A DNA stretch of 34,350 bases from a virus: the IMG/VR virus record IMGVR_UViG_3300010883_000182, positions 1-34,350 of that record. One strand, given 5' to 3'. Positions 1,262 through 26,190 of the stretch are shown in pieces. The notes beneath the pieces were generated by a model. That model searched no databases. It was given only the letters and a program-made list of their open reading frames with translations, and was not told the DNA's origin. Made by a program: the position numbers and the translations under genes. Position 1 is the first letter of the stretch; every line of letters starts with the position of its first letter.

Positions 1262-1705
1262 ATGACGACTCCCGCGAAGAAGACCCCCGCGAAGAACCGC
1301 ACGAAGCGCGTCCCGCCCCGCAAGGGCCGCGCCCAGACGGACGCCCCCGTCGTCCGATGGCAGGCCGCCTGGATGGCCGCCTATGCCGCCGGCGGCAATA
1401 TCACCGCCGCCTGCCGCGCCGCCGGCGTCCCCCGCTCCACGTACATTCACGCCCATCAGGACCACGCCGCCTTCCGCGACCGCCAGGAGGAGGCCTTCGA
1501 GGAATACCTCGACAGCATCGAGGCCGAGGTGACGCGCATGGCCCGCGCCGGCGGCGCCCCCTCGCAGCTCGCCGCCGCCCTCCGCATCCTCGGCCGCAAG
1601 CGCCCGGACTGGCTGCCGCCCAAGCCCAGCGTCGTCGGCATCGACACGACCCCGCTCATCTTCCGCCTCGACCTGGGAACGCCGCTGCTGCAACTGGAGG
1701 AGTGA
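1262..1705 (+). CDS. Putative small terminase subunit (TerS-like HTH protein)
   Basis: This encodes 147 residues. After a Lys/Arg-rich N-terminus comes a helix-turn-helix region: AYAAGGNITAACRAAGVPRST at about residues 40-60. That is the pattern of small-terminase and terminase-associated HTH proteins, in which alternating helices recognise the packaging site. An acidic helix (EEAFEEYLDSIEAEV) follows and may oligomerise. The position, just ahead of the large terminase and separated from it only by the methyltransferase and a small insertion, supports the call. No strong Shine-Dalgarno is visible (GACGGATAA before ATG). The gene ends in TGATG overlap with the methyltransferase. Confidence 0.7.
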   Translation: MTTPAKKTPAKNRTKRVPPRKGRAQTDAPVVRWQAAWMAAYAAGGNITAACRAAGVPRSTYIHAHQDHAAFRDRQEEAFEEYLDSIEAEVTRMARAGGAPSQLAAALRILGRKRPDWLPPKPSVVGIDTTPLIFRLDLGTPLLQLEE

Positions 1706-3225
1706 TGCGCATCCTCCAGGCCGACGCCCGCGACATCCCCCTCGCCGACGCCAGCATCGACGCGATCGTCTGCGACCCGCCCTATGAGCTCGGATTCATG
1801 GGCAAGGGGTGGGACAGCGCCGGCGTTGCGTTCAACCCGGCGACGTGGGCGGAGGCGCTCCGCGTTGCGAAGCCGGGCGCGCACCTGCTCGCCTTCGGCG
1901 GGACGCGGACCTATCACCGGCTCGCCGTCGCGATCGAGGATGCCGGGTGGGAGATCCGCGATTGCCTGATGTGGCTCTACGGGTCGGGCTTCCCGAAGTC
2001 GCTCGACGTGGGGAAGGCGATCGACCGGGCACGCTACGACCGCGAACAGATCCTCAGGGTGACGCGCTGGATCAATGCGGCGTTCAAGGCGGCGGGCGTG
2101 AGCTATCGCACGGCGTTAGGGGCGTTCGGGTTCAATGAGGGTAGCGGGCAGATCGGGCACTGGACAGCGCTCACGATAGGAGCGCAGCCCGCCGTTCCGA
2201 CCCTCGATCAGATACCGACGCTCCTCGCCGTCCTGGGCGACCCGGACGTGCCGCCCGAGATCGCGGATCTGATCTGGACGCTCAACGGGCGCAAGGGGCA
2301 GCCGGGGGAGAACTGGGCGAAGCGGGAGAAGGTGGGGGAGTCCACGAATCAGATACACCTCGCGAACCTCGGGGACGCCGGGTACGCGGAACGCTGGGAC
2401 ATCACCGAGCCCGCGACTGACGCCGCGCGCCAGTGGGACGGATTCGGCACGGCGCTGAAGCCCGCATGGGAAATAATCATCCTCGCCCGCAAGCCCCTAA
2501 CGGGCACCGTCGCCCAGAACGTGCAAGCGCACGGGACGGGGGCGCTCAACATCGACGGGTCGCGGATTGGGAGTGAGAGCACCCGGCGCGATACTGGCGA
2601 AGTCGGCATCTGGGGGCACGCTGGACGTATTGAGGGGGGGTCAGAGGCGGGTCGCTGGCCCGCGAACCTCCTCCTCGACGAAGCGGCGGCGGCACGGCTG
2701 GACGCGGAGGCGGGGGAGCGGATTGTCAACACGCCGGGACAACTGACAGTTGATCCCGGTTTCGGAAGCGGATACGCGCCGCGTGTCCCGTATGGCTACG
2801 GCGACCGCGGCGGCCCCTCGCGATTCTTCTACACCGCGAAGGCGAGCCGGACGGAGCGCGAGGCGGGGCTCCTGGGCCTGGTGCCGTGCGCGGCCTGCGC
2901 CGGCCTCGACTCGGAGTCTCACCCGGACAAGGCCGGCACCGAGACCGTGAGGTGTCGCCGAAACGATCACCCCACCGTGAAGCCCATCGACCTCATGCGC
3001 TACCTCTGCACCCTGATCACGCCGCCCGGCGGGCTCATCCTCGATCCGTTCATGGGGTCCGGCTCGACGGGCATGGCGGCGCTGGATGCGGGCTTCCGAT
3101 TCGTCGGCATTGACCAGGACCCCCACTACGTGGAGATCGCGCAGTCACGCATCGCGCGCCGTCACCTGCTCACCCCGGAGACCAGAGAGCCCACCCCAGA
3201 GACGGCACAAGGGGCGCTGTTCTGA
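1705..3225 (+). CDS. Site-specific DNA methyltransferase, beta-type motif order (N6-adenine or N4-cytosine)
   Basis: This encodes 506 residues. DPPY at residues 24-27 (motif IV, catalytic) precedes DPFMGSGSTG at about 447-456 (motif I, AdoMet binding), the order of beta-class amino-methyltransferases. HPTVKPIDLMRYL at about 422-434 precedes motif I as expected. A CAAC pair near residue 393 may bind zinc. The middle third is the likely target-recognition region. The ATG shares a base with the TerS stop (TGATG), and the stop overlaps the next ATG likewise. A longer in-frame reading upstream runs through TerS in another frame and is not credible. Lying between terminase genes, it probably marks phage DNA against host restriction. 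The target site is unknown. Confidence 0.9.
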   Translation: MRILQADARDIPLADASIDAIVCDPPYELGFMGKGWDSAGVAFNPATWAEALRVAKPGAHLLAFGGTRTYHRLAVAIEDAGWEIRDCLMWLYGSGFPKSLDVGKAIDRARYDREQILRVTRWINAAFKAAGVSYRTALGAFGFNEGSGQIGHWTALTIGAQPAVPTLDQIPTLLAVLGDPDVPPEIADLIWTLNGRKGQPGENWAKREKVGESTNQIHLANLGDAGYAERWDITEPATDAARQWDGFGTALKPAWEIIILARKPLTGTVAQNVQAHGTGALNIDGSRIGSESTRRDTGEVGIWGHAGRIEGGSEAGRWPANLLLDEAAAARLDAEAGERIVNTPGQLTVDPGFGSGYAPRVPYGYGDRGGPSRFFYTAKASRTEREAGLLGLVPCAACAGLDSESHPDKAGTETVRCRRNDHPTVKPIDLMRYLCTLITPPGGLILDPFMGSGSTGMAALDAGFRFVGIDQDPHYVEIAQSRIARRHLLTPETREPTPETAQGALF

Positions 3226-3317
3226 TGGCCGCAACCGGGGCGACGCAAAACGCCCCCCTCGAGCGCGCCCTCCAATACCAGCGCCCCTACGTCTACCCCA
3301 AGCAGCGCGACAAATAG
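3225..3317 (+). pseudogene. Truncated duplicate of the large-terminase 5' end
   Basis: This is a 30-codon reading frame starting in TGATG overlap with the methyltransferase and ending at TAG 3315-3317. Residues 13-29 are ERALQYQRPYVYPKQRD, identical to residues 7-23 of the terL start at 3714. Across those 17 codons the two copies differ at eight positions, all silent third bases (3261-3311 against 3732-3782). The similarity stops right after the Asp codon. It sits where terL would be expected to begin, so it is best read as the displaced original start of terL. It may still be translated as a short peptide. Confidence 0.85.
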
Positions 3318-3360: not shown

Positions 3361-3419
3361 TACCGTGGGGCCAAGGGCGCAGACCAGCAAGGCCGCCCAC
3401 CCACAAAGGAGTGATTGCA

Positions 3420-3650
3420 GTGAATCTGCCCCCCGCCCCGCAACGAGTCGTCTCGATGAAGCAACTCCTACTCACGCCCGCCGAGGTCAGCGCCGCCACC
3501 AGCCTTGGCCCCACGACGATCAAGGCGCTGATGGTGAGCGGGGAGATCGAATCGATCACCATCGGCACGGCGCGGCGCATCCCGGCGGCGGCGCTGGAGA
3601 AGTGGATCGAGCGGAAGCGGGTCGCGGCCCTGGCCCCACCGGAGGAGTAA
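3420..3650 (+). CDS. Excisionase-type helix-turn-helix protein inserted in terL
   Basis: This encodes 76 residues from GTG at 3420, chosen because AAAGGAG (3404-3410) ends nine bases upstream. ATG at 3456 would give 64 residues but lacks a good ribosome site. The sequence LLLTPAEVSAATSLGPTTIK, then VSGEIESITIGTARRIP and ALEKWIERK, is the usual layout of the HTH_17/excisionase family: a MerR-like helix-turn-helix, a short beta wing with Gly-x-x-Arg-Arg, and a final Trp helix. Such proteins bind DNA as regulators or recombination directionality factors. It lies between two copies of the terL start. A regulatory role in late expression or a mobile-element origin is inference. Confidence 0.8.
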   Translation: MNLPPAPQRVVSMKQLLLTPAEVSAATSLGPTTIKALMVSGEIESITIGTARRIPAAALEKWIERKRVAALAPPEE

Positions 3651-3713
3651 GTGGGCCACACCCTTAGAGCAGGCCCAGAACCGCCGCCCGCCGGAGAGGA
3701 GGGAAACAAGTCG

Positions 3714-5120
3714 ATGCCCACGACCGCACCCGAACGCGCGCTCCAGTATCAGCGCCCGTACGTGTATCCGAAGCAGCGCGACGCCATCTTCAACGATGCG
3801 CGCTACGCGCTCGTCGAGGCATCGACTTGACGTAAAGCTAAGTCGGGAAAAACGCATGGGACGCTGCTCTGGCTCGTCGAGCAGGCCATCCTCGACCCCG
3901 ACCCGGTCGGCCACGAGTATTGGTGGGTGGCGCCGATCTTCCCCCAGGCCCTGATCGCCTTCAACCGCCTGCGCTCCGGCCTCAGCGACTGGACGCTCCG
4001 CACCCGCATCCTCGAATCGCCGCCGCAGATCACCCTCCCCAACGGCGCCCGGATCGTCTTCAAGTCCGGGGAGAAGCCCGACGGCCTCTACGGCGAGGAT
4101 GTCTACGCTGCCGTCCTGGACGAGGCGACCCGTATGCGCCCCGCCGTCTGGGCCGCCATCCGCTCGACGCTGACCTACACGCGCGGCCCCATCCGCATCA
4201 TCGGCAACGTCAAGGGCAACCGGAACTGGGTCTACAAGCTGGGCCAGCGCGCGAAGCAGGAGATGGAGGCCGGGAACGACCGCTGGCACTACGCGCGCAT
4301 CACCGCCGTCGACGCCCAGGCGGCCCACGTCCTCGACCCCGCCGAGGTGGAGGACGCCCGCTCGGTGCTGACGACCGAGGACTTCCAAGAGCTCTACATG
4401 GCCGAGCCCGCCTCGACGCTCGGCTTCATCTACGCGCAGTTCAGCCAGCACAACGTCAGCGACGATGCCGTCTTCATCCCCGGTGCTGGCCCCCTGTTCC
4501 TCTTCGGGGACTGGGGCTTCACCGACAACACCGCGATCCTGTTCGCGCAGATGCGCGACGGCCGCCTCTACGTCTTCGACGAGTTGGTCGGGAACGGCGT
4601 CGCCGAGGGCGAGTGGGTGCGCCGCGTCGTCCGCCGCCTGATCGACCTCGACGGCTACGACGGCCCCCCTTGGGAGGAGTGGCTGCGGATCTGGGCCGAC
4701 CAGGCCCGCCCCGCCCACTGGCCGACCGTCTGGCCCGAGGCCGCCATCTGCGACCCCTCCGCCGTGCAGCTCCGGACGACGTTCGCCACCCACGGCATCA
4801 GCGCCTATCTGCCCAAGCGGGTCAAGCACGAAGTGATCGCCGGGCAGCGCAAACTCAACGCCCTCTTCGAGGCCGACGCCGGCAACCGGCGGCTCTTCAT
4901 CCACCCATCGTGCAGCGAGACGATCAACGGCCTGGGGGCCTACGTCGCCAAGCAGCGCGAGGACGGCAGCTTCGAGGAGCGCCCCGACCCCGGCGCCGAG
5001 AATCACACATGGAGCCACCCATGCGACGCGCTGCGGTACGGGGCGTGGGGACTTAGGCGGTTCTTTGACATACAATCCGGCCAAGTCCCAGCGGAGTTGC
5101 CCCCGGAGGATGACGCATGA
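3714..5120 (+). CDS. terL: Large terminase subunit (TerL), interrupted by a stop in Walker A
   Basis: Start ATG 3714 follows AGGAGGG with a ten-base gap. Without the 12-base insert at 3828-3839 the product would be 464 residues. Seen: VEAST then KSGKT (residues 35-43, Walker A once joined), WWVAPIF after it, Walker B AAVLDEATRM near 128-136, and RNase-H-like nuclease aspartates in LFGDWGF, AICDPS and HPCDALRYG. TerL is the motor and nuclease that packages DNA into the prohead. As assembled, TGA at 3828-3830 ends the first part after 38 residues. The frame resumes unchanged, but no start codon lies before the Walker A lysine, and the first usable one (GTG 3927) follows it. Either the gene is broken in this genome or an unusual decoding or processing event joins it. 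The ATGA overlap with the portal is intact. Confidence 0.9.
3828..3839 (+). other. 12-base in-frame insertion with stop codon inside Walker A of terL
   Basis: The codons Ser-Thr before and Lys-Ser-Gly-Lys-Thr after would join into a canonical ASTKSGKT P-loop if TGACGTAAAGCT were absent. The ends can slide by two bases because CT occurs on both sides, giving CTTGACGTAAAG as an equivalent insert. CGACTT (3823-3828) and AAGTCG (3840-3845) form an inverted repeat around it, so the stop lies in a small stem-loop. It is too short for a known self-splicing intron or intein. It may be an excision footprint, a recoding site, a polymorphism or a disabling mutation. Confidence 0.8.
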
Positions 5121-7135
5121 GCATCGCGCCCGCGCCTCGCCGGTCCCCCGTGCGATGGCTCGCCGGCCGCTTCCGCCGCCGCCCCTCGACCCCCGCCCGG
5201 AGCATCGCCGCCGCAGACCTGTTCGACCGCGACGCCCTCGACCGCCGCCACGCCGGCGACCGCCGGGGCACCCGCTCCAACGACGAGATCGCGATGACGC
5301 TGGCCGCCGTCTACGGGGCGGTCCGCTTCCGCAGCGTCGCCATCACGAAGTCCGCCGTCGTCCTGCAACGCCGCCGAGGCGACGACTGGGAGGACGTGAC
5401 CGACGACCACCCCGCCGCGCTGCACAGCCGCCGCGTCAACGCCACGCTGAGCTGGCCCCGCGCGCTGCAACTCGTCGAGGAGCACCGCCTCATCAACGGG
5501 AACGCCTTTTGGGTCAAACGCCGCGACGGCCTCGGCATCGCCGCCGGCTTCGAGGTCTGGCACCCATCCCAGGTCGCCGCCATCCGCGATCCCAACGATC
5601 CGTTCATCGTCGCGCGCTACCGCTTCACCGATCAGCGTGGCGCGACCACGACCGCCGACCCCGAAGACGTGATCCACTTCCGCCACATGCTCAACCCCGC
5701 CGACTGGGTTTGGGGCGTCTCGCCGATCACCGCGATCCGGTTGGAGGCGTCCGCCGCCCTGGAGGCGCAGCGATACAACATCAAGTTCTACGACCAGGGC
5801 GCCCGCGCCAGCCTGACCTACGCGATGGGCGAAGGCGTCGGCGACATGGAGGCGTCGCGCGTCGAGGACGTGATCAACGCCAAGATGGCCGGCACCGACA
5901 ACGCCCACCGCATCCGCGTCCTGCCCGGCGCCATGACGCCGATCATGAACGCGATGTCCCTCGCCGATATGGAGTTCCTGGGCCAGCAGAAGTGGACGCG
6001 CAACGAGACCGCGACCGCCTTCGAGCTCTCGCCGCTGGCGCTGAAGGACTTTGAGAAGGCGACCTACCAGAACGCCGACCAGGCGAACGAGCAGGACTGG
6101 ACCGTCGTCCTCGACCAGCTCCGCGCCACCCTGCGCGAGATCAACGAGCAGTTCATCTGGCCCGAGTTCGGGACGGACCTGCGGCTCTTCGCCGCCGGCA
6201 ACGACATCCCCGCGCTCGAATCGAACATGAAGGACCGCGCCGCCGTCGACCAGATCTACCTCGGCACGGCCAAGGTGACGGTCAACGAACTGCGCGAGCG
6301 CGACGGCCAGGACACCGTCCCCTGGGGCGACACCCCCTGGGTGAGTTCCACCCTCGTCCCCGCCGACCAGCCCCGCACCCCCGCGCCGGCCCCGGCGCCG
6401 CCGCCCACGCAGGCGTCGCTCCGGGGCATCCCGCCGATGCCGGTCACCACCGACGTCCCCGGCCTGCTGACCCAAGAGCGCCTGATCGCGGAGCGCTGGC
6501 GCGGCCGCCTGGGGAACGAGATGCGCGGCATCATTCAGCACCTCGACCGTGAGGCGTCCCGCAGCCTGCGCGTCCTCAGCCCGCAGCACGTCGACACCTA
6601 CGACTGGGCCTGGGAGGCCCGCTACGGCGAACGCGCGATCGAGGAGCTGGCGGAGTTGTTCCGCCTCAGCGCCGCCGCCGCCGCGTTCATCGAAGTCCCG
6701 CTGCTGACCGCCAATATCGCCGCCAACACCTACGCGGCCGAGCGCGCCGGCGAGTTGATCGGCGGCATCACCGACGGCACGCGCCGCAACATCCGCCGCG
6801 CCGTGACCGAGACGATCGAGCAGGGTCGCCCCCTGCGGGAGCTGAAGAATCAGATCCGCGAGATGTACGACTTCTCGGAGAGCCGCGCGGAGTCCATCGC
6901 CCGCACGGAGACGGCCACCGCGCAGGGCCAGGGCACCCGCGCCGCTGCCCTCAGCCAGGGGCGCAACGAGAAGCGCTGGGTGACCGCCGGCGATAACCGC
7001 GTCGACCCGCACTGCTCTGAGAATGCGAGCGTCGGCTGGATCGATGCGCAGGGGGTCTTCCCGACCGGTAAGGACACGATCCCCGACCATCCGCGCTGCC
7101 GCTGCGTCGTGCAGTACCGGACGCGCCGGGACTAG
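5117..7135 (+). CDS. Portal protein fused to Mu F-like head morphogenesis domain
   Basis: This encodes 672 residues. The N-terminal two thirds look like an HK97-type portal: residues about 50-400 with AAVYGAVRFRS, LINGNAFWV, DVIHFRH, GVSPI and the ETATAFELSP/ALKDFEKATYQN helices of the portal wing and stem. A Pro-rich linker lies at about 414-432. The C-terminal part, about 540-672, has ESIARTETATAQ, KRWVTAGDNRVDPHC and DHPRCRCVV, typical of the Mu gpF/SPP1 gp7 minor head family. The portal forms the dodecameric DNA gate; Mu F-like proteins assist head assembly or are ejected. They are usually separate genes, so this is a fusion. The start overlaps terL as ATGA after GGAGG. Confidence 0.9.
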   Translation: MSIAPAPRRSPVRWLAGRFRRRPSTPARSIAAADLFDRDALDRRHAGDRRGTRSNDEIAMTLAAVYGAVRFRSVAITKSAVVLQRRRGDDWEDVTDDHPAALHSRRVNATLSWPRALQLVEEHRLINGNAFWVKRRDGLGIAAGFEVWHPSQVAAIRDPNDPFIVARYRFTDQRGATTTADPEDVIHFRHMLNPADWVWGVSPITAIRLEASAALEAQRYNIKFYDQGARASLTYAMGEGVGDMEASRVEDVINAKMAGTDNAHRIRVLPGAMTPIMNAMSLADMEFLGQQKWTRNETATAFELSPLALKDFEKATYQNADQANEQDWTVVLDQLRATLREINEQFIWPEFGTDLRLFAAGNDIPALESNMKDRAAVDQIYLGTAKVTVNELRERDGQDTVPWGDTPWVSSTLVPADQPRTPAPAPAPPPTQASLRGIPPMPVTTDVPGLLTQERLIAERWRGRLGNEMRGIIQHLDREASRSLRVLSPQHVDTYDWAWEARYGERAIEELAELFRLSAAAAAFIEVPLLTANIAANTYAAERAGELIGGITDGTRRNIRRAVTETIEQGRPLRELKNQIREMYDFSESRAESIARTETATAQGQGTRAAALSQGRNEKRWVTAGDNRVDPHCSENASVGWIDAQGVFPTGKDTIPDHPRCRCVVQYRTRRD

Positions 7136-7161
7136 CCCCTCGCATTCGCCCCTCATCTGTG

Positions 7162-7190
7162 CTACGATAACCGTAGGAAAGAGGGACGAC
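7162..7190 (+). promoter_or_regulatory. Recurrent leader with inverted repeat and Shine-Dalgarno
   Basis: CTACG (7162-7166) and CGTAG (7172-7176) form an inverted repeat that includes a -10-like TACGAT. GGAAAGAGGGACGAC follows directly and ends at the start codon. Very similar arrangements lie before 7477 (+) and on the minus strand before 31236 and 30700. It may combine promoter or operator and ribosome site. Confidence 0.5.
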
Positions 7191-7406
7191 ATGCAGACCA
7201 TCGACACCGCCGCAATCGAGTACGCAAGCAAGGTCGGCGACGTGCTCATCGGCTCCGACGAAGACCTCGACGTTTTCTACAACGCCGACGACGAGCGCCT
7301 CGCGGTTGTGGATCGCGACTCCCAGATGGTGCTTGAGACTCGCCTTCACGTCGGCAGCGAAGAGCACGCGAAAGACATCGCGGGGCGGGCGTTCTTCACG
7401 GTCTAG
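7191..7406 (+). CDS. Small accessory protein, unknown
   Basis: This encodes 71 residues and is acidic. ATG at 7191 follows the recurrent GGAAAGAGGGACGAC leader, which decides the start over an in-frame ATG at 7023 inside the portal gene. No motif or membrane segment is seen; alternating hydrophobic residues (LAVVDRDSQMVLETRLHV) suggest a small beta-containing fold. It opens a block of independent small genes between portal and protease, a usual place for acquired accessory genes. Function not recognised. Confidence 0.65.
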   Translation: MQTIDTAAIEYASKVGDVLIGSDEDLDVFYNADDERLAVVDRDSQMVLETRLHVGSEEHAKDIAGRAFFTV

Positions 7407-7429
7407 CCCGCCCCCCCGCCCCCCACCCC

Positions 7430-7451
7430 ACCCCCGCTACGGAGCGGGGGT
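7430..7451 (+). terminator. GC-rich hairpin, possible weak terminator
   Basis: ACCCCCGCT and AGCGGGGGT pair perfectly around loop ACGG. Only two T bases follow, so intrinsic termination is uncertain. A near-identical hairpin with loop ATGG lies at 7894-7915, also between two accessory genes. The repetition suggests the hairpins travel with the cassettes. Confidence 0.5.
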
Positions 7452-7476
7452 TACGGGATCAGGAAAGAGGGACGAC

Positions 7477-7872
7477 ATGAAGACCACCGACACCGCCTAC
7501 ACCGAGCACGACAAAACGCTCGTCCGCCGCGCGCACACGGGCTACCGCTTCAACGGTCGCGACATCAGCAAGGCGATCCGCAGGTCGAGCACCTTCGCCG
7601 CCGCCGAGTTGCGGCTCGCGGGGAGCGGCTGGTTCTGGTCCGCTGAGGCGGCAGACTTCGTCTACGTCGCCACGCAGACCACCGACACGACCCCCGACCA
7701 GGCCACCCTCGCCGCCGCCGAGCGATACAACGACGCGCGGGCGCACGGGTGGAACCACAGCCAGGCGCTCCGCTGGATGGACTACGCGAGGACCGAGCGC
7801 GAGCGTGAAGCCCGCGAGCGCGCCACCGCCAACTACCGCCGCCGCCAAGCGGCCGCCCACCGCCCCGCCTAA
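7477..7872 (+). CDS. Accessory protein, unknown
   Basis: This encodes 131 residues. ATG 7477 follows AGGAAAGAGGGACGAC, the same leader as the gene before. The first half is mixed (a GYRFNGRDISKAIRR stretch), followed by aromatic-rich GSGWFWSAEAADFVYVA; the C-terminal third is a charged helix rich in Arg, Glu and Ala (TEREREARERATANYRRRQ), probably alpha-helical and nucleic-acid or protein binding. No family is recognised. Hairpins on both sides make it look like a self-contained cassette. Confidence 0.65.
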   Translation: MKTTDTAYTEHDKTLVRRAHTGYRFNGRDISKAIRRSSTFAAAELRLAGSGWFWSAEAADFVYVATQTTDTTPDQATLAAAERYNDARAHGWNHSQALRWMDYARTEREREARERATANYRRRQAAAHRPA

Positions 7873-7893
7873 GTCCCCCACCGGCACCGCCCC

Positions 7894-7915
7894 ACCCCCG
7901 CTATGGAGCGGGGGT
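7894..7915 (+). terminator. Second copy of GC-rich hairpin
   Basis: ACCCCCGCT, loop ATGG, AGCGGGGGT. It differs from the hairpin at 7430-7451 only in the loop, and both are preceded by a C-rich run and followed by TTAC-GGG-like sequence. It lies after the 7477-7872 gene. Confidence 0.5.
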
Positions 7916-7955
7916 TACCGGGTGCAATCAGAACACCAAGGAGAGAGAGACGACG

Positions 7956-8339
7956 ATGACCCATACAACGATCGACGGAACGCTGACCTACGTTACAAAT
8001 GTTGCGCATGAAGTGGGGGACGACGGGGGAGAATGGGATACGTTCCGCGTCGCGGGATACCGGATCGTTCTCGCCGAGTGGTATGTCGGCATATGTGAGA
8101 TAGATCGCACTCCCATCCTGAGTGGGATTCACAATCTGAGCGATCGGACACCGCGCGTCATCGACGCATGGTCAGAAAATGTCGGGGGGGGGAACATGAT
8201 CGACGTTCTCGCGCTCAGTACGGGCGATTACTTGACAGTGACGGACGATTGCATCGTCCGTCGAGATACGTCCGATTGGGATAGTTGGGTCATCGACGCC
8301 GATCCGGTTGATGTTGTAGTCCTTCCGGCGCGCCGCTAG
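7956..8339 (+). CDS. Accessory protein with base use unlike its neighbours
   Basis: This encodes 127 residues. ATG 7956 follows AAGGAGAGAGAGACGACG, a variant of the recurrent leader. Base and codon choice are visibly less GC-rich than in flanking head genes (runs such as AATGGGATACG and GTTGATGTTGTAG), which suggests recent acquisition. The protein is acidic with alternating hydrophobic residues, probably mostly beta strand, without Cys pairs or membrane segments. No family is recognised. It ends just before a strong bidirectional terminator. Confidence 0.7.
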   Translation: MTHTTIDGTLTYVTNVAHEVGDDGGEWDTFRVAGYRIVLAEWYVGICEIDRTPILSGIHNLSDRTPRVIDAWSENVGGGNMIDVLALSTGDYLTVTDDCIVRRDTSDWDSWVIDADPVDVVVLPARR

Positions 8340-8374
8340 CCGCCCCGCCCGCACCCCACCCCCGCCGCCGCTCC

Positions 8375-8401
8375 AACACCCCGCCACTCGGCGGGGTGTT
8401 T
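8375..8401. terminator. Bidirectional intrinsic terminator
   Basis: AACACCCCGCC and GGCGGGGTGTT form a perfect 11-bp stem with loop ACTC, then one more T and GCG. It sits between the + strand accessory genes ending at 8339 and the minus-strand HTH gene ending at 8405, where convergent transcripts need stopping. Confidence 0.75.
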
Positions 8402-8407
8402 GCGTTA
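8392..8407. repeat. 16-bp direct repeat, left copy
   Basis: CGGGGTGTTTGCGTTA here is repeated exactly at 8685-8700. This copy includes the 3' arm of the terminator and the stop codon of the minus-strand HTH gene. Confidence 0.85.
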
Positions 8408-8596
8408 TCCCGAGGGCGTTTGCAGCATCGCGTCTAGGGCAGCGCGGGGCACGAGGAGGCGGCGACCTAAGCGAATCACGGGGATCTCCCCGCGCTGCAC
8501 AGCCTCGTAAGCGAGGCGTCGCCCAATGCCCAACCGGGCTGCCGCCTCATCTACGGTCATGGTCTCGCTGAGGTGCCTGTTCGCGACGATTGTCAT
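8405..8596 (-). CDS. Excisionase-type helix-turn-helix protein, antisense in the head operon
   Basis: This encodes 63 residues. ATG at 8596 is chosen because GGAG lies eight bases upstream; an in-frame start at 8653 would add 19 residues without a better site. MTVDEAAARLGIGRRLAYEAV, then RGEIPVIRLGRRLLVPRAALDAML, is the full HTH_17/excisionase layout with the Gly-Arg-Arg wing. It is of the same broad family as the protein at 3420-3650 but clearly diverged. It is the only minus-strand gene within the structural half, is flanked by 16-bp direct repeats and has its own terminator. Upstream, TCCGACGG occurs twice in tandem (minus strand, 8660-8679), a possible operator. A regulator role is inferred. 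Confidence 0.85.
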   Translation of the reverse strand: MTIVANRHLSETMTVDEAAARLGIGRRLAYEAVQRGEIPVIRLGRRLLVPRAALDAMLQTPSG

Positions 8597-8684
8597 GTGG
8601 TGCGCTCCGTTCTTTGTGTGGAAGGATCGCACGGAGCAGGCGTGGCGAACCACCCTGAACCGTCGGAATATCCGTCGGATTCGC

Positions 8685-8700
8685 CGGGGTGTTTGCGTTA
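8685..8700. repeat. 16-bp direct repeat, right copy
   Basis: This is an exact second copy of CGGGGTGTTTGCGTTA, 293 bases from the left copy. It provides the -35 region of the promoter at 8693-8721. Confidence 0.85.
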
Positions 8701-8721
8701 CGCGCGCTCCACCTAGATAAT
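8693..8721 (+). promoter_or_regulatory. Probable promoter for the protease-capsid operon
   Basis: TTGCGT (8693-8698) and GATAAT (8716-8721) are 17 bases apart. This is the best sigma-70-type match seen in the window. It points to the prohead protease gene at 8774 and follows the terminator and antisense HTH gene, so it probably restarts late transcription. Confidence 0.55.
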
Positions 8722-8773
8722 CACCGCAAGCAACATCACGGCCTCACAGCCCCCAGATCAGGGGGACGCCGCG

Positions 8774-9631
8774 ATGGACCAGCTCCGCTCCTACCACACC
8801 TTCACGGCGCAGCGCGCCCAGGACGCCCCCGTCGGCGTCCACCAGTTCGTCATCTCCACCGACGACCTCGCCCGCGACGGCGCGATCATCGAGGCGAAGG
8901 GCTGGAAGTTCGACAACTTCCGCAAGAACCCCGTCGTGCTCTACCAGCACGACGACTTCCACACCGCGCCCATCGGCCGCGTCGTGGACGACTCCCTCGG
9001 CACCCGCGCCGGCAAACTCAGCGCCTCGATCCAGTTCGACATGGACGACCCTGAGTCCGCCCGCATCGAGGGCAAGGTCGCGCGCGGCTACATGAGCGCG
9101 ACCAGCGTCCGCTGGCTGCCAATCAAGGCGGAGATGCAGGAGCGCGAGATCGACGGCGAGACGCGCGAGGTCTACGTCTTCCAAGAGCAGGAGCTGCTGG
9201 AAGTCTCGATCGTCAGCATCCCCGCCGACCCCGGCGCGCTGATCAAGCGCAGCGACGGCGAGCCCCTCGACATCGCCGCCCTCCTCACCCCGCCGCCAGA
9301 CGTTATCGACCTCCGCGGCGACCCATACCACACCGACCCCGACCCCCTGACAACGGTGACCGCCTATTTCCGCGCGCTCGATGAGCAACTGTCCCCCGCA
9401 GCCTTCGATCGTCTTGACGATCAGGAGCGGGAATTGGCGACGCGTCTTTACGCCCGCCTTGGTGGACTGCTCGCGGACGCGCCCGAGGCCCCGGCCCCGC
9501 CGGACCTCCTGCCCCTGGCCGACGGCATCCGCGCGATCACGGACTCCGTGACCGCCTTGGCCGAACGCCCCCCCATCGACATCGCGCGCCTCGTGGACGA
9601 GCGCATCGCCGCTCGCACCGGCCGCGCCTAA
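8774..9631 (+). CDS. HK97-type prohead protease (peptidase S78)
   Basis: This encodes 285 residues. The fold marks are in order: NPVVLYQHD with His59, GYMSATSVRW with the probable nucleophile Ser111, and LLEVSIVSIPADPGAL with Glu143. It matures the prohead by cutting the scaffold part of the capsid protein, which is encoded directly downstream. The C-terminal 100 residues are extra and may act as scaffold or self-cleavage region. It follows the promoter at 8693-8721. Confidence 0.92.
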   Translation: MDQLRSYHTFTAQRAQDAPVGVHQFVISTDDLARDGAIIEAKGWKFDNFRKNPVVLYQHDDFHTAPIGRVVDDSLGTRAGKLSASIQFDMDDPESARIEGKVARGYMSATSVRWLPIKAEMQEREIDGETREVYVFQEQELLEVSIVSIPADPGALIKRSDGEPLDIAALLTPPPDVIDLRGDPYHTDPDPLTTVTAYFRALDEQLSPAAFDRLDDQERELATRLYARLGGLLADAPEAPAPPDLLPLADGIRAITDSVTALAERPPIDIARLVDERIAARTGRA

Positions 9632-9650
9632 GCGAAAGGACCGCCGGACC

Positions 9651-11186
9651 ATGTCCGACCTCCCTGAGACCAACACGGCGGAGGCCCCCGCCTCCGACCC
9701 GACCGCAGACGCCATCGCCCTGATGGCCGCCGGCATCGGCACGCTTTCCGAGACCGTTAGCGCCTTGGCGACCCGCCAGGCCGAGACGGAAGAGCGCGTC
9801 AGCGCCGACATCGACAAGCGCCTAACCACCATCGCCGGCGAGACCCGCACCACGCGGCGCCCCGAGGGCGAAACGCAGCGCGAGCCCCGCATCGAAGTCC
9901 CCGACCGGTTCCGCACCTACGGCTATGGCGACCCCAGCCCCGCCGAGGTCGCCTGGGGCCAGCGCGCCGGCATGACCGCAGCCGAGCTCCGCGAGACCGT
10001 CATGCGCTCCAACCTTGAGGTTGCGATGCTCGTCCTCGGCGGCACGCAAGACCGCAAAGGCATCGGCGAGGTCGCGATCCCCGACGACCTGCAAACGGCC
10101 TTCCGCACCCACGCCTTCGAGGGCGTCGGCCCCCGGCCGTTTGTCACCGACGGCGAAGGCCGCAAGGTTCGCGCGATGGACAGCGCTGAGTCGGGCTTCG
10201 GCCTGGAGCTCATCGGCGTCCAGTACGTGACGAACATGTGGGAGGCCGCCCGCAACCTCGACAGCATCGTCTCGGACATTCGCACGGTCCCGATGACCGC
10301 GCCCACCATGACGATCCCGATCGACGGCGACATGCCGGAGATGCTGTTCGTCGGCGAATCGACCACGTCCAGCGCGACCGCATACACCACGTCCAAGACG
10401 GGCTCGGGCAACCGCGACCTCACCGCCAAGAAGTTCACCATCCAGCAAATCTGGTCCGGGGAACTGGGCGAGGACAGTGTGGTCCCCTGGATTCCCTTCC
10501 TGCGCGACCAGCTCAACATGGCGGCGGCGTCGTACCTCGGGTCGGCCTACCTCAACGGCGACACGACCAACGCCGGCACCGGCAACATCAACCTCGATGA
10601 CGCCGACCCCGCCGACACCAAGCATTACCTTGCCTGGGACGGGATTCGCCACTACTGGCTGGTTGACGCCACGGGCCAGGGTAAGGACATGGCGGCTGCC
10701 CTCGACGACGCGGAGATCACGGTCGCACGCGGCAAGCTCAACGGCGGCGACGACGACATTGACAACCTGATCAAGAACATCAACTGGGGCCTCAACCCCC
10801 GTGACCTGCGGTTGGTCTGCGACTGGGACACCTACATCCAACTGACGCAGTTGGACTCCGTGAAGACGATCGACAAGTACGGCCCGCAGGCGACCATCGT
10901 CACCGGCGAGCTCGGCTCGATCCACGGCATCCCGATCATCAGCCCGTCGTACGCCTCGAAGACCATGGCCGACGGCAAAGCCTCCACGACCGAGGCGTCG
11001 AACACCAAGGGCCAGATCACCATCTTCGCCCCGCGTGGCTACATCGGCGGCGTGCGACGCGAAATGCAGTTGTTCTTCGATCGCATCCAGCGCACCGACC
11101 AGTTCCTCTTCGAGCTCTACACGCGGCGCGGCTTCAACCGCCACGGCGCCAACGTCGCCGCCGGCATCTACAACATCACCGTCTGA
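9651..11186 (+). CDS. Major capsid protein, HK97 fold, with N-terminal scaffold region
   Basis: This encodes 511 residues. Residues 1 to about 80 are helical and charged (SETVSALATRQAETEERVSA), as in the delta domain removed by the protease upstream. After about residue 165 the HK97-type sequence follows, with DSIVSDIRTVPMTAPTMTIP, a long AAASYLGSAYLNGDTT helix, DNLIKNINWGLNPRDLRLVCD and the late IFAPRGYIGG...RRGFNRHGANV end typical of these capsid proteins. It builds the icosahedral shell around the portal. AAAGGA precedes the start. Confidence 0.93.
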   Translation: MSDLPETNTAEAPASDPTADAIALMAAGIGTLSETVSALATRQAETEERVSADIDKRLTTIAGETRTTRRPEGETQREPRIEVPDRFRTYGYGDPSPAEVAWGQRAGMTAAELRETVMRSNLEVAMLVLGGTQDRKGIGEVAIPDDLQTAFRTHAFEGVGPRPFVTDGEGRKVRAMDSAESGFGLELIGVQYVTNMWEAARNLDSIVSDIRTVPMTAPTMTIPIDGDMPEMLFVGESTTSSATAYTTSKTGSGNRDLTAKKFTIQQIWSGELGEDSVVPWIPFLRDQLNMAAASYLGSAYLNGDTTNAGTGNINLDDADPADTKHYLAWDGIRHYWLVDATGQGKDMAAALDDAEITVARGKLNGGDDDIDNLIKNINWGLNPRDLRLVCDWDTYIQLTQLDSVKTIDKYGPQATIVTGELGSIHGIPIISPSYASKTMADGKASTTEASNTKGQITIFAPRGYIGGVRREMQLFFDRIQRTDQFLFELYTRRGFNRHGANVAAGIYNITV

Positions 11187-11218
11187 ATCCTCCTCAGCGG
11201 TAGATGGAAGGAGACCTC

Positions 11219-11590
11219 ATGCCGCAGCGACCAGGCCGACCACAACGCGAGGGCATCCACGCACTGGGCGTGGAACCTCGGCAGATCGACGACCCCGGCA
11301 ACGCCGGCACCATCCCCGGCAACCAGTCCGGCTACGTGGAGCTGACCAGTGGAGGCGCGGAGACGCGCACCCTGGCCGATCCCCAGTTCCGGGGGCAGAT
11401 ACTGGATCTCGTGTTCGTCTCGGACGGCGGCGACTGCGTCGTCACCGCGTCGAGCCCGCTCAACCAGACCGGCAACACCGTGATGACGTTCGCCGACATC
11501 GGCGACCACGTCCGCATCGTGGGCTTCAACAACGCCACCGACGGCTGGGAGTGGCGTCAAGTGGCGAATGACGGGGCGGCGCTGTCGTGA
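11219..11590 (+). CDS. Probable head-associated structural protein (decoration-like)
   Basis: This encodes 123 residues. ATG 11219 has AAGGAG five bases upstream, preferred over in-frame ATG 11204. The central pattern GGAETRTLADPQFRGQ, then VSDGGDCVVTASSPLNQTGN, then WRQVANDGAALS is a small beta-rich unit seen in proteins near capsid genes of other phages. The position right after the capsid gene suggests a decoration or capsid-stabilising role. That is inference; no enzymatic motif is present. The end overlaps the next gene as GTGA. Confidence 0.65.
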   Translation: MPQRPGRPQREGIHALGVEPRQIDDPGNAGTIPGNQSGYVELTSGGAETRTLADPQFRGQILDLVFVSDGGDCVVTASSPLNQTGNTVMTFADIGDHVRIVGFNNATDGWEWRQVANDGAALS

Positions 11591-11832
11591 CCGTCGTCGT
11601 TCTCGATGTCCTCGGCCGCTACCGCTCCTCCTTGGGGGAGTGGGAGGCGGGCGGGGAAGTCCACTGCACCAACGATGAGGCGGCGCTGCTGTTGCGAGAC
11701 AGCCCCGGCAGTTTCGCCGTGCAGGGCTCCAAACCAAAGCCAGCGGCGAAGAAGGTCGGGCGCTCCACCACCACGACGGGGGTGGCGGCGTCGGACCGGC
11801 GCGCTCGGGGCGGCACGAAGCGGGGGTCGTAG
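11587..11832 (+). CDS. Small head-region protein, unknown
   Basis: This encodes 81 residues from GTG 11587, which overlaps the stop before (GTGA). The first 45 residues are compact with VLDVLGRYRSSLGEWEAGGEV; the last 35 are a basic, Ser/Thr/Ala-rich tail (KPAAKKVGRSTTTTG...). A small folded domain with a disordered basic tail suits a virion component, but no family is recognised. The stop abuts the next ATG. Confidence 0.6.
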   Translation: MTVVVLDVLGRYRSSLGEWEAGGEVHCTNDEAALLLRDSPGSFAVQGSKPKPAAKKVGRSTTTTGVAASDRRARGGTKRGS

Positions 11833-12210
11833 ATGACCATTCGCGCGCTTGCCGCCCTGAAAGTCACCACGGCCGGTGACGCTGGCGCCGCCGCTGGGAC
11901 CGCCGACACGGGGCGCGTCATCGCGGGGGAAGTGCTCGGTGCATACATCGACTACACCTCGCAGCCCGGCACGACGGATGTGACGTTGCGGACGAAGGGG
12001 ACCGCCCTGCCGTCCTACAACCTGCTTGTCGTGACCAACGGCAACACCGACGGCTTCTTCCCAGTGCGTGCCTCGCCCGTCGATTTGGCCAACGCGGCGA
12101 TCACCAACTCGCACGCCCCCTTCGTGGTGGCGGACGAACTGGAGGTCTCCGTCGCCCAGGGCGACGCCATCGCGGATGGCGTCGTCGTGCATCTCCTGAT
12201 TCGAGACTGA
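11833..12210 (+). CDS. Probable virion structural protein, unknown
   Basis: This encodes 125 residues. It is rich in Ala, Thr, Val and Gly with alternating hydrophobics, predicted beta. It has no Cys and no membrane segment. ATG immediately follows the previous stop. The context, between decoration-like proteins and the connector gene, points to a head or connector accessory protein. No family assignment is possible by eye. Confidence 0.6.
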   Translation: MTIRALAALKVTTAGDAGAAAGTADTGRVIAGEVLGAYIDYTSQPGTTDVTLRTKGTALPSYNLLVVTNGNTDGFFPVRASPVDLANAAITNSHAPFVVADELEVSVAQGDAIADGVVVHLLIRD

Positions 12211-12348
12211 GCGCGTCAAGGGAGGGCCGCTAACCGCACACCACCACACCACATGGGGCAGGGCTGGCGGCTGTTACTCCGTGGCTCCAGTGTCCACCCC
12301 GCCAGTGTCGCCCCGGCGTCCATGAAAGCCGGAATGTAGGGGACGACC

Positions 12349-13425
12349 ATGCCGAGTTGGCTTGCCACCCGCGAGTCCGTCAAGCGCGCCTCCGGCGCGA
12401 AGGGCAGCGACCGCGACGACCAGATCGACGAACTGATCCAGTCCGCGACGGACGAGATCTACCGCGACACGAATCGCGACAATGACGCGCGCCGCTTCGT
12501 CCCCTACACGGCTCTCGTGCGCCTCTACCGCTTCCCTAATCAGAACATCGTCAGCCCCAGCCACCTCCTGCTCGACGGTGACCTGCAAAGCGTCGACAGC
12601 CTGACGCGCGACGGCACCGACGTCACCGCCATCGCCTCGACGGATTACTTCTTGGAGCCGAACAACCTCGGCCCGCCCTACCACCGCATCGAGATCGACC
12701 TGGCCTCAACCGCCTTCTTCGCCGGCAAGGACACGCCGCAGCGCGCCCTCACACTGACGGGCACCTTCGCACGGCATAGCGAGACGGCCACCGCCGGCAG
12801 CCTGGGCGCCGCGATTGCCAACGGCACCGATACGTCGATGCAGGTCAAGAACGGCCGCCTCGTCGAAGTCGGGCATACCGTCCTCATCGGCACCGAGCAG
12901 GTGCGCGTGACGGACATCAGCGACAACGACATCGGCACGAACGTCGCCGGTTCCGGCCTGACCGCCTCCGTATCGGACACCGCGCTCACCCTGGGCGACC
13001 CCGCCGACAACCTCAACGTCGGCGAGGTGATCCGCATCAATAGCGAGACCCTGCGCGTGACCGCCGTCACCTCCGCCACCGTCGTCACGGTCGAGCGGGC
13101 CTACGACGGCTCCACCCTGGCGGCGCACTCCTCCGGCGACGACATCTTCGTGCGCCGCACCTACACCATCGTCCGAGGCGTCAACGGCACAACCGCCGCT
13201 GCGGCCGCCGACGACGCCGCGATCAGTACGTACGTCGTGCCCGCCGATGTCCGCAAGTGGTGTCGCGGCCTCGTCATCGTGACGATGCAGCAGGAGCAGC
13301 ACGGCTGGGGCCGGGAGATCGGCCGGGGCGAGGGCGCCTCGGAGTTTCGCGGGACGGTCTGGGACAAGTTCCAGGCGTCGATGCGGCAGAAGTACCGCTG
13401 GCACGCGATCGGGGGGCCAGTCTGA
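12349..13425 (+). CDS. Head-tail connector (adaptor) protein with inserted beta domain
   Basis: This encodes 358 residues. The N-terminus (DDQIDELIQSATDEIYRDTNR...) matches the helical start of gp6/gp15-type head-tail adaptors, which dock under the portal. The C-terminal helix VRKWCRGLVIVTMQQEQHG also fits. Residues about 160-285 form an insert with two similar units: VEVGHTVLIGTEQVRVTDI and LNVGEVIRINSETLRVTAV, a duplicated beta motif. The length is well above the usual 100-200 residues because of this insert. The 138-base gap before it holds a CTGGCGG/CCGCCAG inverted repeat and an AGGGG ribosome site. Confidence 0.75.
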   Translation: MPSWLATRESVKRASGAKGSDRDDQIDELIQSATDEIYRDTNRDNDARRFVPYTALVRLYRFPNQNIVSPSHLLLDGDLQSVDSLTRDGTDVTAIASTDYFLEPNNLGPPYHRIEIDLASTAFFAGKDTPQRALTLTGTFARHSETATAGSLGAAIANGTDTSMQVKNGRLVEVGHTVLIGTEQVRVTDISDNDIGTNVAGSGLTASVSDTALTLGDPADNLNVGEVIRINSETLRVTAVTSATVVTVERAYDGSTLAAHSSGDDIFVRRTYTIVRGVNGTTAAAAADDAAISTYVVPADVRKWCRGLVIVTMQQEQHGWGREIGRGEGASEFRGTVWDKFQASMRQKYRWHAIGGPV

Positions 13426-14349: not shown

Positions 14350-14586
14350 ATGCCGACCTATCGCATCGGGAACCCCAACAACATCCCCGCCGGCATCCCG
14401 GTCTTTACCTGCGTCGACGCCTGCTGCGGCAAGCCGCAGTTCGCCGGCGGCACGTTCGACCCGGACGCGCACCCCAAGCTCAACCCCGCCCGCCTCCTGT
14501 CGGGGGGCTGGCTGCTGGGCGACGCGCCAGCGGTGAAGGCGAAGAAGAAGAAGACGGCAGCGACGAAGGGAGCCATCCGTGGCTAA
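14350..14586 (+). CDS. Small protein before the tail tube gene, unknown
   Basis: This encodes 78 residues. Seen: FTCVDACCGKPQF with three Cys near residue 25, and a Lys-rich tail (KAKKKKTAATKG). A GAGGAGCGCAGGACG ribosome region precedes the ATG. The end overlaps the tail tube gene by eight bases. It might be a small virion or assembly protein. Function not recognised. Confidence 0.6.
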   Translation: MPTYRIGNPNNIPAGIPVFTCVDACCGKPQFAGGTFDPDAHPKLNPARLLSGGWLLGDAPAVKAKKKKTAATKGAIRG

Positions 14587-15340
14587 ACGATCCGGACTCG
14601 GCGGCGCCCTCTACCTCAACGGCCTCGACCTCTCGGGCGACGTGGGCTCGATCGACCAAGCAGCCGCCTCGCGGACGCTGCTTAGCGTGCCGGGCATCGA
14701 CAAGAGCGCCAATGAACTGATTGCCGGCCTCGCCACTGGCGCGCTGGACTTCACCGGCTACTTCAACGACGCCACCGACCAACTCCACCTCACCGCTCGC
14801 GCGCTCGGTGCCGCTGCGGCGATTCAGAACATCACCTACGCGGTCGCGACGACGATCGGAGACCCCGCCTTCATGTTGCGGGCGCGGCAGGTGGACTACG
14901 CCCCCTCCCGCTCGGCCGACGGCGCACTGACCATCCCCGTGACGGCCGTGGGCGTCGACGGCGTGATCCCCGAGTGGGGCAAGATGCTGACGACCGGCCT
15001 CGTCACGCAGGGGTCGGCGGCGGCCCTGGCCTCGCTCGACAACGCCGCTTCCTCGGCCAGCGGCCTCGCCGCGATGCTGCACGTCGCCAGCATCACCGGC
15101 GGCGGCTCCACCCTGACCGTCACGATTCAAGAGTCCAGCGACGATGGCAGCGGCGACGCCTGGACGACCAAGCTCGCGATGGCGGGGGTGGCGCAGGCAT
15201 CCGCCGCCACCTCGGAGCGGGCGACCGCTACGGGCACCGTGGAGCGCTACACGCGCATCATCACGACCGGCGGCTGGACACAGGCCAAGTTCGCGCTGGC
15301 GATGCGAAGGGGGACCGCTGATGACATTGACGCGTATTAG
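14579..15340 (+). CDS. Major tail (tube) protein
   Basis: This encodes 253 residues. The start MAKRSGLGGALYLNGLDLSG, DKSANELIAGLATGALDFTGYFND and the later YAPSRSADGALTIPVTAVGVDG are the pattern of siphovirus tube proteins. It shares this pattern with the shorter protein at 15825-16232. Residues about 140-253 form an extra C-terminal beta domain (TGGGSTLTVTIQESSDDGSGDAW, then a strand-rich end), like surface domains appended to tube subunits. The tube forms stacked hexamer rings around the tape measure. Confidence 0.78.
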   Translation: MAKRSGLGGALYLNGLDLSGDVGSIDQAAASRTLLSVPGIDKSANELIAGLATGALDFTGYFNDATDQLHLTARALGAAAAIQNITYAVATTIGDPAFMLRARQVDYAPSRSADGALTIPVTAVGVDGVIPEWGKMLTTGLVTQGSAAALASLDNAASSASGLAAMLHVASITGGGSTLTVTIQESSDDGSGDAWTTKLAMAGVAQASAATSERATATGTVERYTRIITTGGWTQAKFALAMRRGTADDIDAY

Positions 15341-15824: not shown

Positions 15825-16232
15825 ATGGCTAAAGAGAGCGGCCTCGGCGCGACGTTCAGCGTCGACGACTCGGGCACCAGCGCCCGAGCGATCACCAACG
15901 ATGTTACTAACTTTGACATCAGCACCCCGCGCAACCTGCAAGACGTGACGGGCCTGGACAAGAGCGCCGTCGAGCGGCTGCAACTGCTGGCCGATGGGCA
16001 GGTCACGTTCAACGCGGCCTTCAACGACGGGGCGACCACCGGCAGCCATACCGTGCTCAAAGACGTGATCAGTAGCGCGGTCGTCCGCACCGTCACGATC
16101 GTCCACTCGGGGCAGACGCTCGGGATGGAGATGCTGGGTGCCGACTACGCCGTCTCGCGCGGCGCCGACGGCGCTCTGGGAGTCTCGGTCCCCTTCAGCC
16201 TGAGCGACGGCTCCGTCCCGACCTGGTCCTAA
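15825..16232 (+). CDS. Second tail tube-like protein (paralogue)
   Basis: This encodes 135 residues. It begins MAKESGLGATFSVDD, then GLDKSAVERLQLLADGQVTFNAAFND and YAVSRGADGALGVSVPFSLSDGSVPTWS. Each segment aligns by eye with the protein at 14579, including DKSA, the AAFND/GYFND turn and SR-ADGAL-PV. It lacks the extra C-terminal domain. The arrangement implies duplication, with either two tube species or one tube and one specialised subunit. GAAAGGAGCC precedes the start. The tail chaperone genes follow directly, the usual place after the main tube gene. Confidence 0.78.
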   Translation: MAKESGLGATFSVDDSGTSARAITNDVTNFDISTPRNLQDVTGLDKSAVERLQLLADGQVTFNAAFNDGATTGSHTVLKDVISSAVVRTVTIVHSGQTLGMEMLGADYAVSRGADGALGVSVPFSLSDGSVPTWS

Positions 16233-25476: not shown

Positions 25477-26190
25477 TTACAGGAGCACTTCCTGGGAAAG
25501 ACGCTTGGCGGCAATCTCGCAGTAGCGCTCCTCGATCTCGATCCCGATGGCGCGCCGCCCGAGATTCTTTGCCGCGCGCAGGGTCGGACCGGCCCCCATG
25601 AATGGATCGAGCACGACGCCGCCCGGCTCAGTCACGGCCTCAATCAGGCGCTCGATCAGCCCTACGGGCTTCGGGCTCGGGTGGTCAGTAGTCGTGTCGC
25701 GCGGGCACGCGATAATGTTTCCGATTGCATGCGACCCCATCGTGGGCTGACCCTTCGACGCATGCATGATGAGTTCGTGTTGCAGGCGGAAGCCAGCGCC
25801 CATACCGAACGACGTTTTATCCCACACGACCATATTGTGGATGCGAAGATTGCAGCTCTCGAACGCGCCAATGAGGTTCGGCCACTGCCTCCAGTCGATG
25901 AAGGAGAGCACGCTGCCGCCATCGCGGAGGTTCGGCATCGCGGCTCGCATCACCTCGCGCATGAACCAGACGAAGCCTGGCGTCGTCATCTGGTCGTTCT
26001 CGATGGCGGTCTTGAAGCGCTCACCGCGAACCATTGGGCCATGAACGGCCTTCGTCGTCTCGCGCGTTCCGGTTGCATACGGGGGGTCCATGACGATCGC
26101 CGCCGCGACTTCGGGAAGCTTACCTGCGAGTACGTCCAGCACATCCCCGTGGTAGATCGTGATCCCGTCGCGGTCGTAGTAGGGGGTCAT
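25477..26190 (-). CDS. DNA methyltransferase, beta-type (N6-adenine or N4-cytosine)
   Basis: This encodes 237 residues. The start YYDRDGITIYHGDVLDVL leads to MDPPYATGT with DPPY at 35-38, and DPFMGAGPTL at about 195-204 carries the AdoMet motif. HPSPKPVGLIERLI precedes it as expected. It is shorter than the enzyme at 1705-3225 and only shares the general motif order. It is last in the minus-strand operon, after a 102-base gap with a possible structured leader. A beta motif order argues against a Dam-type GATC enzyme, though the specificity cannot be read by eye. No strong ribosome site precedes the ATG. Confidence 0.9.
   Translation of the reverse strand: MTPYYDRDGITIYHGDVLDVLAGKLPEVAAAIVMDPPYATGTRETTKAVHGPMVRGERFKTAIENDQMTTPGFVWFMREVMRAAMPNLRDGGSVLSFIDWRQWPNLIGAFESCNLRIHNMVVWDKTSFGMGAGFRLQHELIMHASKGQPTMGSHAIGNIIACPRDTTTDHPSPKPVGLIERLIEAVTEPGGVVLDPFMGAGPTLRAAKNLGRRAIGIEIEERYCEIAAKRLSQEVLL

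Follow-up and report, generated by a model that had tools for sequence, protein, structure and literature searches.

Translational bypassing in gene 60 of bacteriophage T4 is characterized by a gap of 50 nt, a stop codon after the take-off codon and a hairpin (PMC8211752), and introns have been reported in the large terminase gene (terL) of ICP1 and other phages (PMC10448857). In this study, we report a terL gene in which 12 bases with an in-frame stop codon lie inside the Walker A motif, and we compare the locus with its relatives and with the systems above.

Genome Context

The sequence analyzed (hereafter the window) is a whole IMG/VR virus record, 34,350 bp in length and with a G+C content of 68%. 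Its two ends share an exact overlap of 123 bp, which suggests that the record is probably a complete circle. According to the profile matches on the record, its core genes are of the tailed-phage type and include terS, a DNA methylase, terL, a portal fused to a Mu F-like domain, a protease, a capsid-like protein, a major tail protein, a tape measure, an amidase, RusA, and Erf. The features surrounding the interruption, together with other methylase genes, are provided in Table 1. No tRNA genes were found in the genome, and hence no suppressor tRNA. A DNA search of the phage collection with positions 1–25000 of the window gave no match.

Only one other record of the same population (L011) was found, which is 100% identical over 6288 bp and covers positions 6845–13132. 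Its comparison with the window also displayed short repeat matches of 85–95% identity (7175–7227 with 7461–7514, and 7411–7457 with 7875–7922). In addition, two nearby genes, at 14579–15340 and 15825–16232, each resemble major tail proteins.

TABLE 1. Location of the interrupted terL gene, its insertion, and other annotated features of the window.
Feature	Position	Strand	Remarks
ParB/methylase-like gene	718–1179
terS, small terminase subunit	1262–1705	+	phrog_4044, E 1.5e-10
DNA methylase gene (N6_N4_Mtase)	1702–3225		Between terS and terL
30-codon ORF, partial duplicate of the terL 5' end	3225–3317	+	Starts on the methylase gene stop; translation MAATGATQNAPLERALQYQRPYVYPKQRDK, then stop
HTH_17 (excisionase/MerR-like) gene	3411–3650	+	Between the duplicate and terL; Pfam HTH_17, E 2.2e-9; phrog_66, E 1.7e-6
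terL, large terminase subunit	3714–5120	+	468 codons, one internal TGA at codon 39
Walker A region, GCA TCG ACT [insert] AAG TCG GGA AAA ACG	3819–3854	+	Four-codon gap in the alignment with relatives
Inverted repeat CGACTT/AAGTCG around the insertion	3823–3845	+	Arms 3823–3828 and 3840–3845
12-bp insertion TGACGTAAAGCT (TGA CGT AAA GCT)	3828–3839	+	Absent from 158/158 relatives
DNA methylase gene (N6_N4_Mtase)	25477–26190

The terL Gene and Its Insertion

The gene was identified as terL by its match to the PHROG family of terminase large subunits (phrog_2, E 5.4e-24, over residues 5–409 of the part that follows the stop), and it also matches Pfam Terminase_6N. Its product is approximately 50% identical to many IMG/VR TerLs, and homology to this class extends over both the ATPase and the nuclease domains; the continuous frame with an intact Walker A motif is broken by the TGA and the four-codon insert. 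The 12 bases separate the Thr codon of the motif from the Lys codon and keep the reading frame, which is open on both sides and has no other internal stop. Downstream of it the gene shows no sign of decay. An earlier note on this DNA had claimed such an interruption, that its removal would restore the P-loop and a TerL of 464 residues in the same frame, and that none of the codons separating the stop from the P-loop lysine is a start codon. The interruption was indeed located there, and translation with the 12 bases skipped gave VEAST-KSGKT and the 464 residues. Reading of the codons in between (CGT AAA GCT AAG TCG GGA AAA) agreed with the last claim as well, since neither ATG, GTG, or TTG nor CTG or ATT occurs there in frame.

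The boundary of the insert is ambiguous by 2 bp, given that a CT is repeated at its flanks, and three placements are possible, so that the insertion consists of 10 new bases together with 2 bp of CT microhomology. No source for the 12-mer was found elsewhere in the genome, where only three non-significant 8-mer matches occurred, and a templated insertion from another part of the genome was rejected on these grounds. An insert length that is a multiple of three has a one-in-three chance, and some luck is needed for the stop as well, as about 6% of the 12-base pieces of this genome hold a stop in a given frame, a value to be read bearing in mind that the case was picked for study because of its stop.

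Without the insert, which sits at its center, the site is a near-palindrome (CGACT-A-AGTCG). The earlier note had situated the stop in the loop of an inverted repeat; the repeat is present, but the stop is not wholly in the loop, because the 5' arm ends with its T and the codon thus straddles arm and loop. Repeats with 6-bp arms and loops of 3–20 nt are common throughout the genome (310 in 34 kb, around 9 per kb), and the z-scores of five local folds with respect to shuffled sequences were 0.01, −1.61, −1.10, 0.46, and −0.76, none of which stands out. The hairpin at the insertion is therefore at background level in both frequency and folding. A separate, perfect inverted repeat of 12 bp was observed between positions 3707–3718 at the start of terL (CAAGTCGATGCC) and positions 3818–3829 (GGCATCGACTTG), the latter extending from the codons immediately before the insertion into it; this pairing is possibly due to chance.

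The Upstream Duplicate

Positions 3253–3311, within the short ORF that follows the methylase gene, are 81% identical at the DNA level to positions 3724–3782 of terL. All 17 shared residues (from E to D) are identical, and 8 of the 17 codons differ, in every case synonymously. The HTH_17 gene located between both copies had no match in the phage collection. A search for an upstream copy of the terL 5' end in 136 relatives yielded only weak matches, and the four that were inspected corresponded to TerS or to noise. It is likely that a cassette consisting of the HTH gene and the terL 5' end of a related phage was recombined into this genome, leaving the old start of the gene as a stub.

Comparison with Relatives

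Single-protein and DNA searches did not reveal any close relatives, the phage collection reaching just 20–30% identity. Relatives were therefore fetched with a degenerate DNA motif encoding IGNVKGxxNWxY, a stretch some 120 codons further downstream that does not involve the P-loop. This search yielded 120 IMG/VR loci, a further 55 GC-rich loci (partly the same), and three loci from bacterial genome assemblies. There were 171 TerL matches in total, and the site was covered in 158 relatives, some of which are near-identical to each other, so that they represent fewer than 158 independent lineages. Their TerL identity to the window ranged from 34 to 57%, the best full-length relative (L027) being 49.6% identical over 462 aligned positions. 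No genome with more than 60% TerL identity was found, and in the Chloroflexota genomes that were searched for closer relatives the best match was 54% identical, over part of TerL.

All 158 relatives have a four-residue gap with respect to the window in the Walker A region, where most of them read E/A-[AG]-[ST]-T-K-x-GKT. None of them has an insert or a change of length at the P-loop, and their aligned parts are free of in-frame stops. The GC-rich relative L154 has an uninterrupted TCGACTAAGTCG, with the codons GCG TCG ACT AAG TCG GGC AAA ACG, and its four central codons (TCG ACT AAG TCG) are those of the window without the 12 bases. Absence of the insert from the whole set supports its being a derived insertion, a singleton of this genome among the relatives found, and not a variant of the family. 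The earlier note had itself named an uninterrupted sequence in nearly all relatives as what would refute its reading, and this is what the 158 relatives display. Foreign codon usage near the P-loop was also considered as a sign of an imported tract and discarded: 4 of the 10 codons end in A or T, but some GC-rich relatives have 3–4 of 10.

Origin of the Insertion and Alternative Explanations

At the level of sequence, the alignments demonstrate a derived insertion, unique among the relatives found, that is in frame and bears a stop in an otherwise intact gene. We further infer a genuine mutation of the sampled DNA and no expression of the gene through recoding. In our opinion, the 12 bases are probably a recent, one-off micro-insertion that gives a null terL allele in one assembled phage genome, and they look like an ordinary chance event, not a new way of reading genes. 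Ten new bases and a 2-bp CT duplication would have entered a terL that is otherwise normal, at its near-palindromic Walker A codons; that the frame was kept would be due to chance, and with the TGA the gene as assembled would yield only a 38-residue peptide and no working TerL. Such a mutant could still replicate its DNA and, in a cell co-infected by intact siblings, have it packaged by their TerL; alternatively, it may be a dead-end variant. The candidate origins are repair filler at a broken palindrome and the footprint of an excised element. Recombination near the site is supported by the partial duplication adjoining the terL 5' end. It must be noted that the circular assembly, the intact state of the other checked core genes, and the undecayed TerL sequence after the stop count against a null allele, given that the genome looks like that of a live phage, which needs TerL.

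The earlier note had listed, among its options, a dead gene, a variant of the population, and the footprint of a lost element; the dead gene fits best, a sequence artefact comes second and a new mechanism is not favored. An artefact would imply that the 12 bases are absent from the real phage DNA, or that the consensus took them up from a molecule that was rare or chimeric. The site is known from a single record, as the same-population record L011 does not reach terL and so gives no independent confirmation, and the near-palindrome lies exactly there. Nevertheless, a clean insert of 12 bp that lacks any source in the rest of the genome is untypical of short-read or overlap-assembly errors, for which reason we regard an artefact as unlikely. 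As for the origin of a true insertion, it would be improbable that it is the footprint of a lost mobile element (an intron, an intein gene, or a transposon) that once occupied the Walker A codons. Phage terL genes with introns are known, among them that of ICP1 (PMC10448857), a 2-bp duplication flanks the 10 new bases, and the recombined HTH cassette is 180–420 bp upstream; against this, whichever of the three placements is taken, the ends of the insert fit neither the group I rule (U before, G at the end) nor those of group II, no examined relative carries an element at this site, and no convincing transposase or homing nuclease was found among the scanned genes. An element still in place was also rejected: the Rfam search gave no match and thus no detectable intron, and there is neither a catalytic core for a group I or II intron nor a splicing domain for an intein in an insert of just 12 nt or four codons. 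Bulge-helix-bulge splicing was discarded as well, because the helix of the predicted hairpin is uninterrupted and does not show the two bulges of 3 nt.

The remaining explanations would maintain TerL synthesis in spite of the stop. Reassignment of TGA to a sense codon was rejected, since TGA terminates 12 of the 23 checked genes; its only internal occurrence is codon 39 of terL, and the remaining checked genes are free of internal stops. With leaky readthrough, a certain amount of TerL, sufficient for packaging, would be made with its P-loop extended by four residues (xRKA). UGA followed by C, as found here, is a weak stop context in bacteria, as at the prfB frameshift site, and the resulting RKAKSGKT would keep KSGKT. 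We consider readthrough very improbable, however, because the P-loop length is constant in the 158 relatives, which makes a four-residue insert unlikely to work, and because the genome lacks a suppressor tRNA. Slightly less probable than readthrough is programmed bypassing, in which the ribosome would stop at ACU before the UGA, slip over the 12 nt with peptidyl-tRNA-Thr landing on GCU through a G-U wobble at the first base, and resume at AAG, giving the normal AST-KSGKT; such a gap might have been acquired together with the recombined terL 5' end and the HTH cassette. The stop directly follows the would-be take-off codon, the last gap codon matches ACU in two of its three bases, a small hairpin covers the site, and the product would be the exact sequence of the family. 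In addition, ribosomes are known to hop in T4 gene 60, where a stop likewise comes after the take-off codon and a hairpin is present (PMC8211752). Against it, the take-off and landing codons are not identical, the folding (z-scores from 0.46 to −1.61) does not indicate a stable stimulatory hairpin, the gap is far shorter than the 50 nt of T4 and is conserved in none of the 158 relatives, the nearest of which are only about 50% identical, and the CT match is what any insertion with a 2-bp microhomology would show. A scan of IMG/VR for the same layout of a stop in the P-loop produced no second case, its three matches being unrelated, out of frame, and not TerL. The functional recoding or RNA-processing mechanism suggested in the earlier note thus lacked support: no relative shares the insert, no second case appeared, the hairpin is at background level, TGA is a common stop in this genome, and no intron was detected.

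Comparison with Known Systems

The locus shares with the bypass of T4 gene 60, and with the mitochondrial byps, extra bases that begin with a stop and interrupt an essential phage gene, a normal product if they are skipped, and a small hairpin. It differs from the T4 bypass in that its gap has 12 nt instead of 50, its codons are non-identical, its hairpin is at background level, and it is unconserved and known here from sequence alone. Fixation of the insertion in a thriving phage that still makes TerL would turn the locus into a very short natural translational bypass, a new case alongside that of T4 gene 60. As matters stand the locus calls for caution, since a lone nonsense insertion in a metagenomic genome, however well placed, should be backed by reads and by relatives before it is attributed to a mechanism. 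With the terL introns of ICP1 and other phages the locus has in common an interruption in the conserved 5' part of terL; in contrast to them, there is no intron core, the insert is far too short, and its boundaries do not fit. Classical amber mutants, that is, nonsense alleles kept by complementation, likewise have a single in-frame stop in an essential gene whose rest is intact, whereas the stop was brought in here by an insertion of 12 bp and comes from a metagenomic assembly rather than from a selected mutant.
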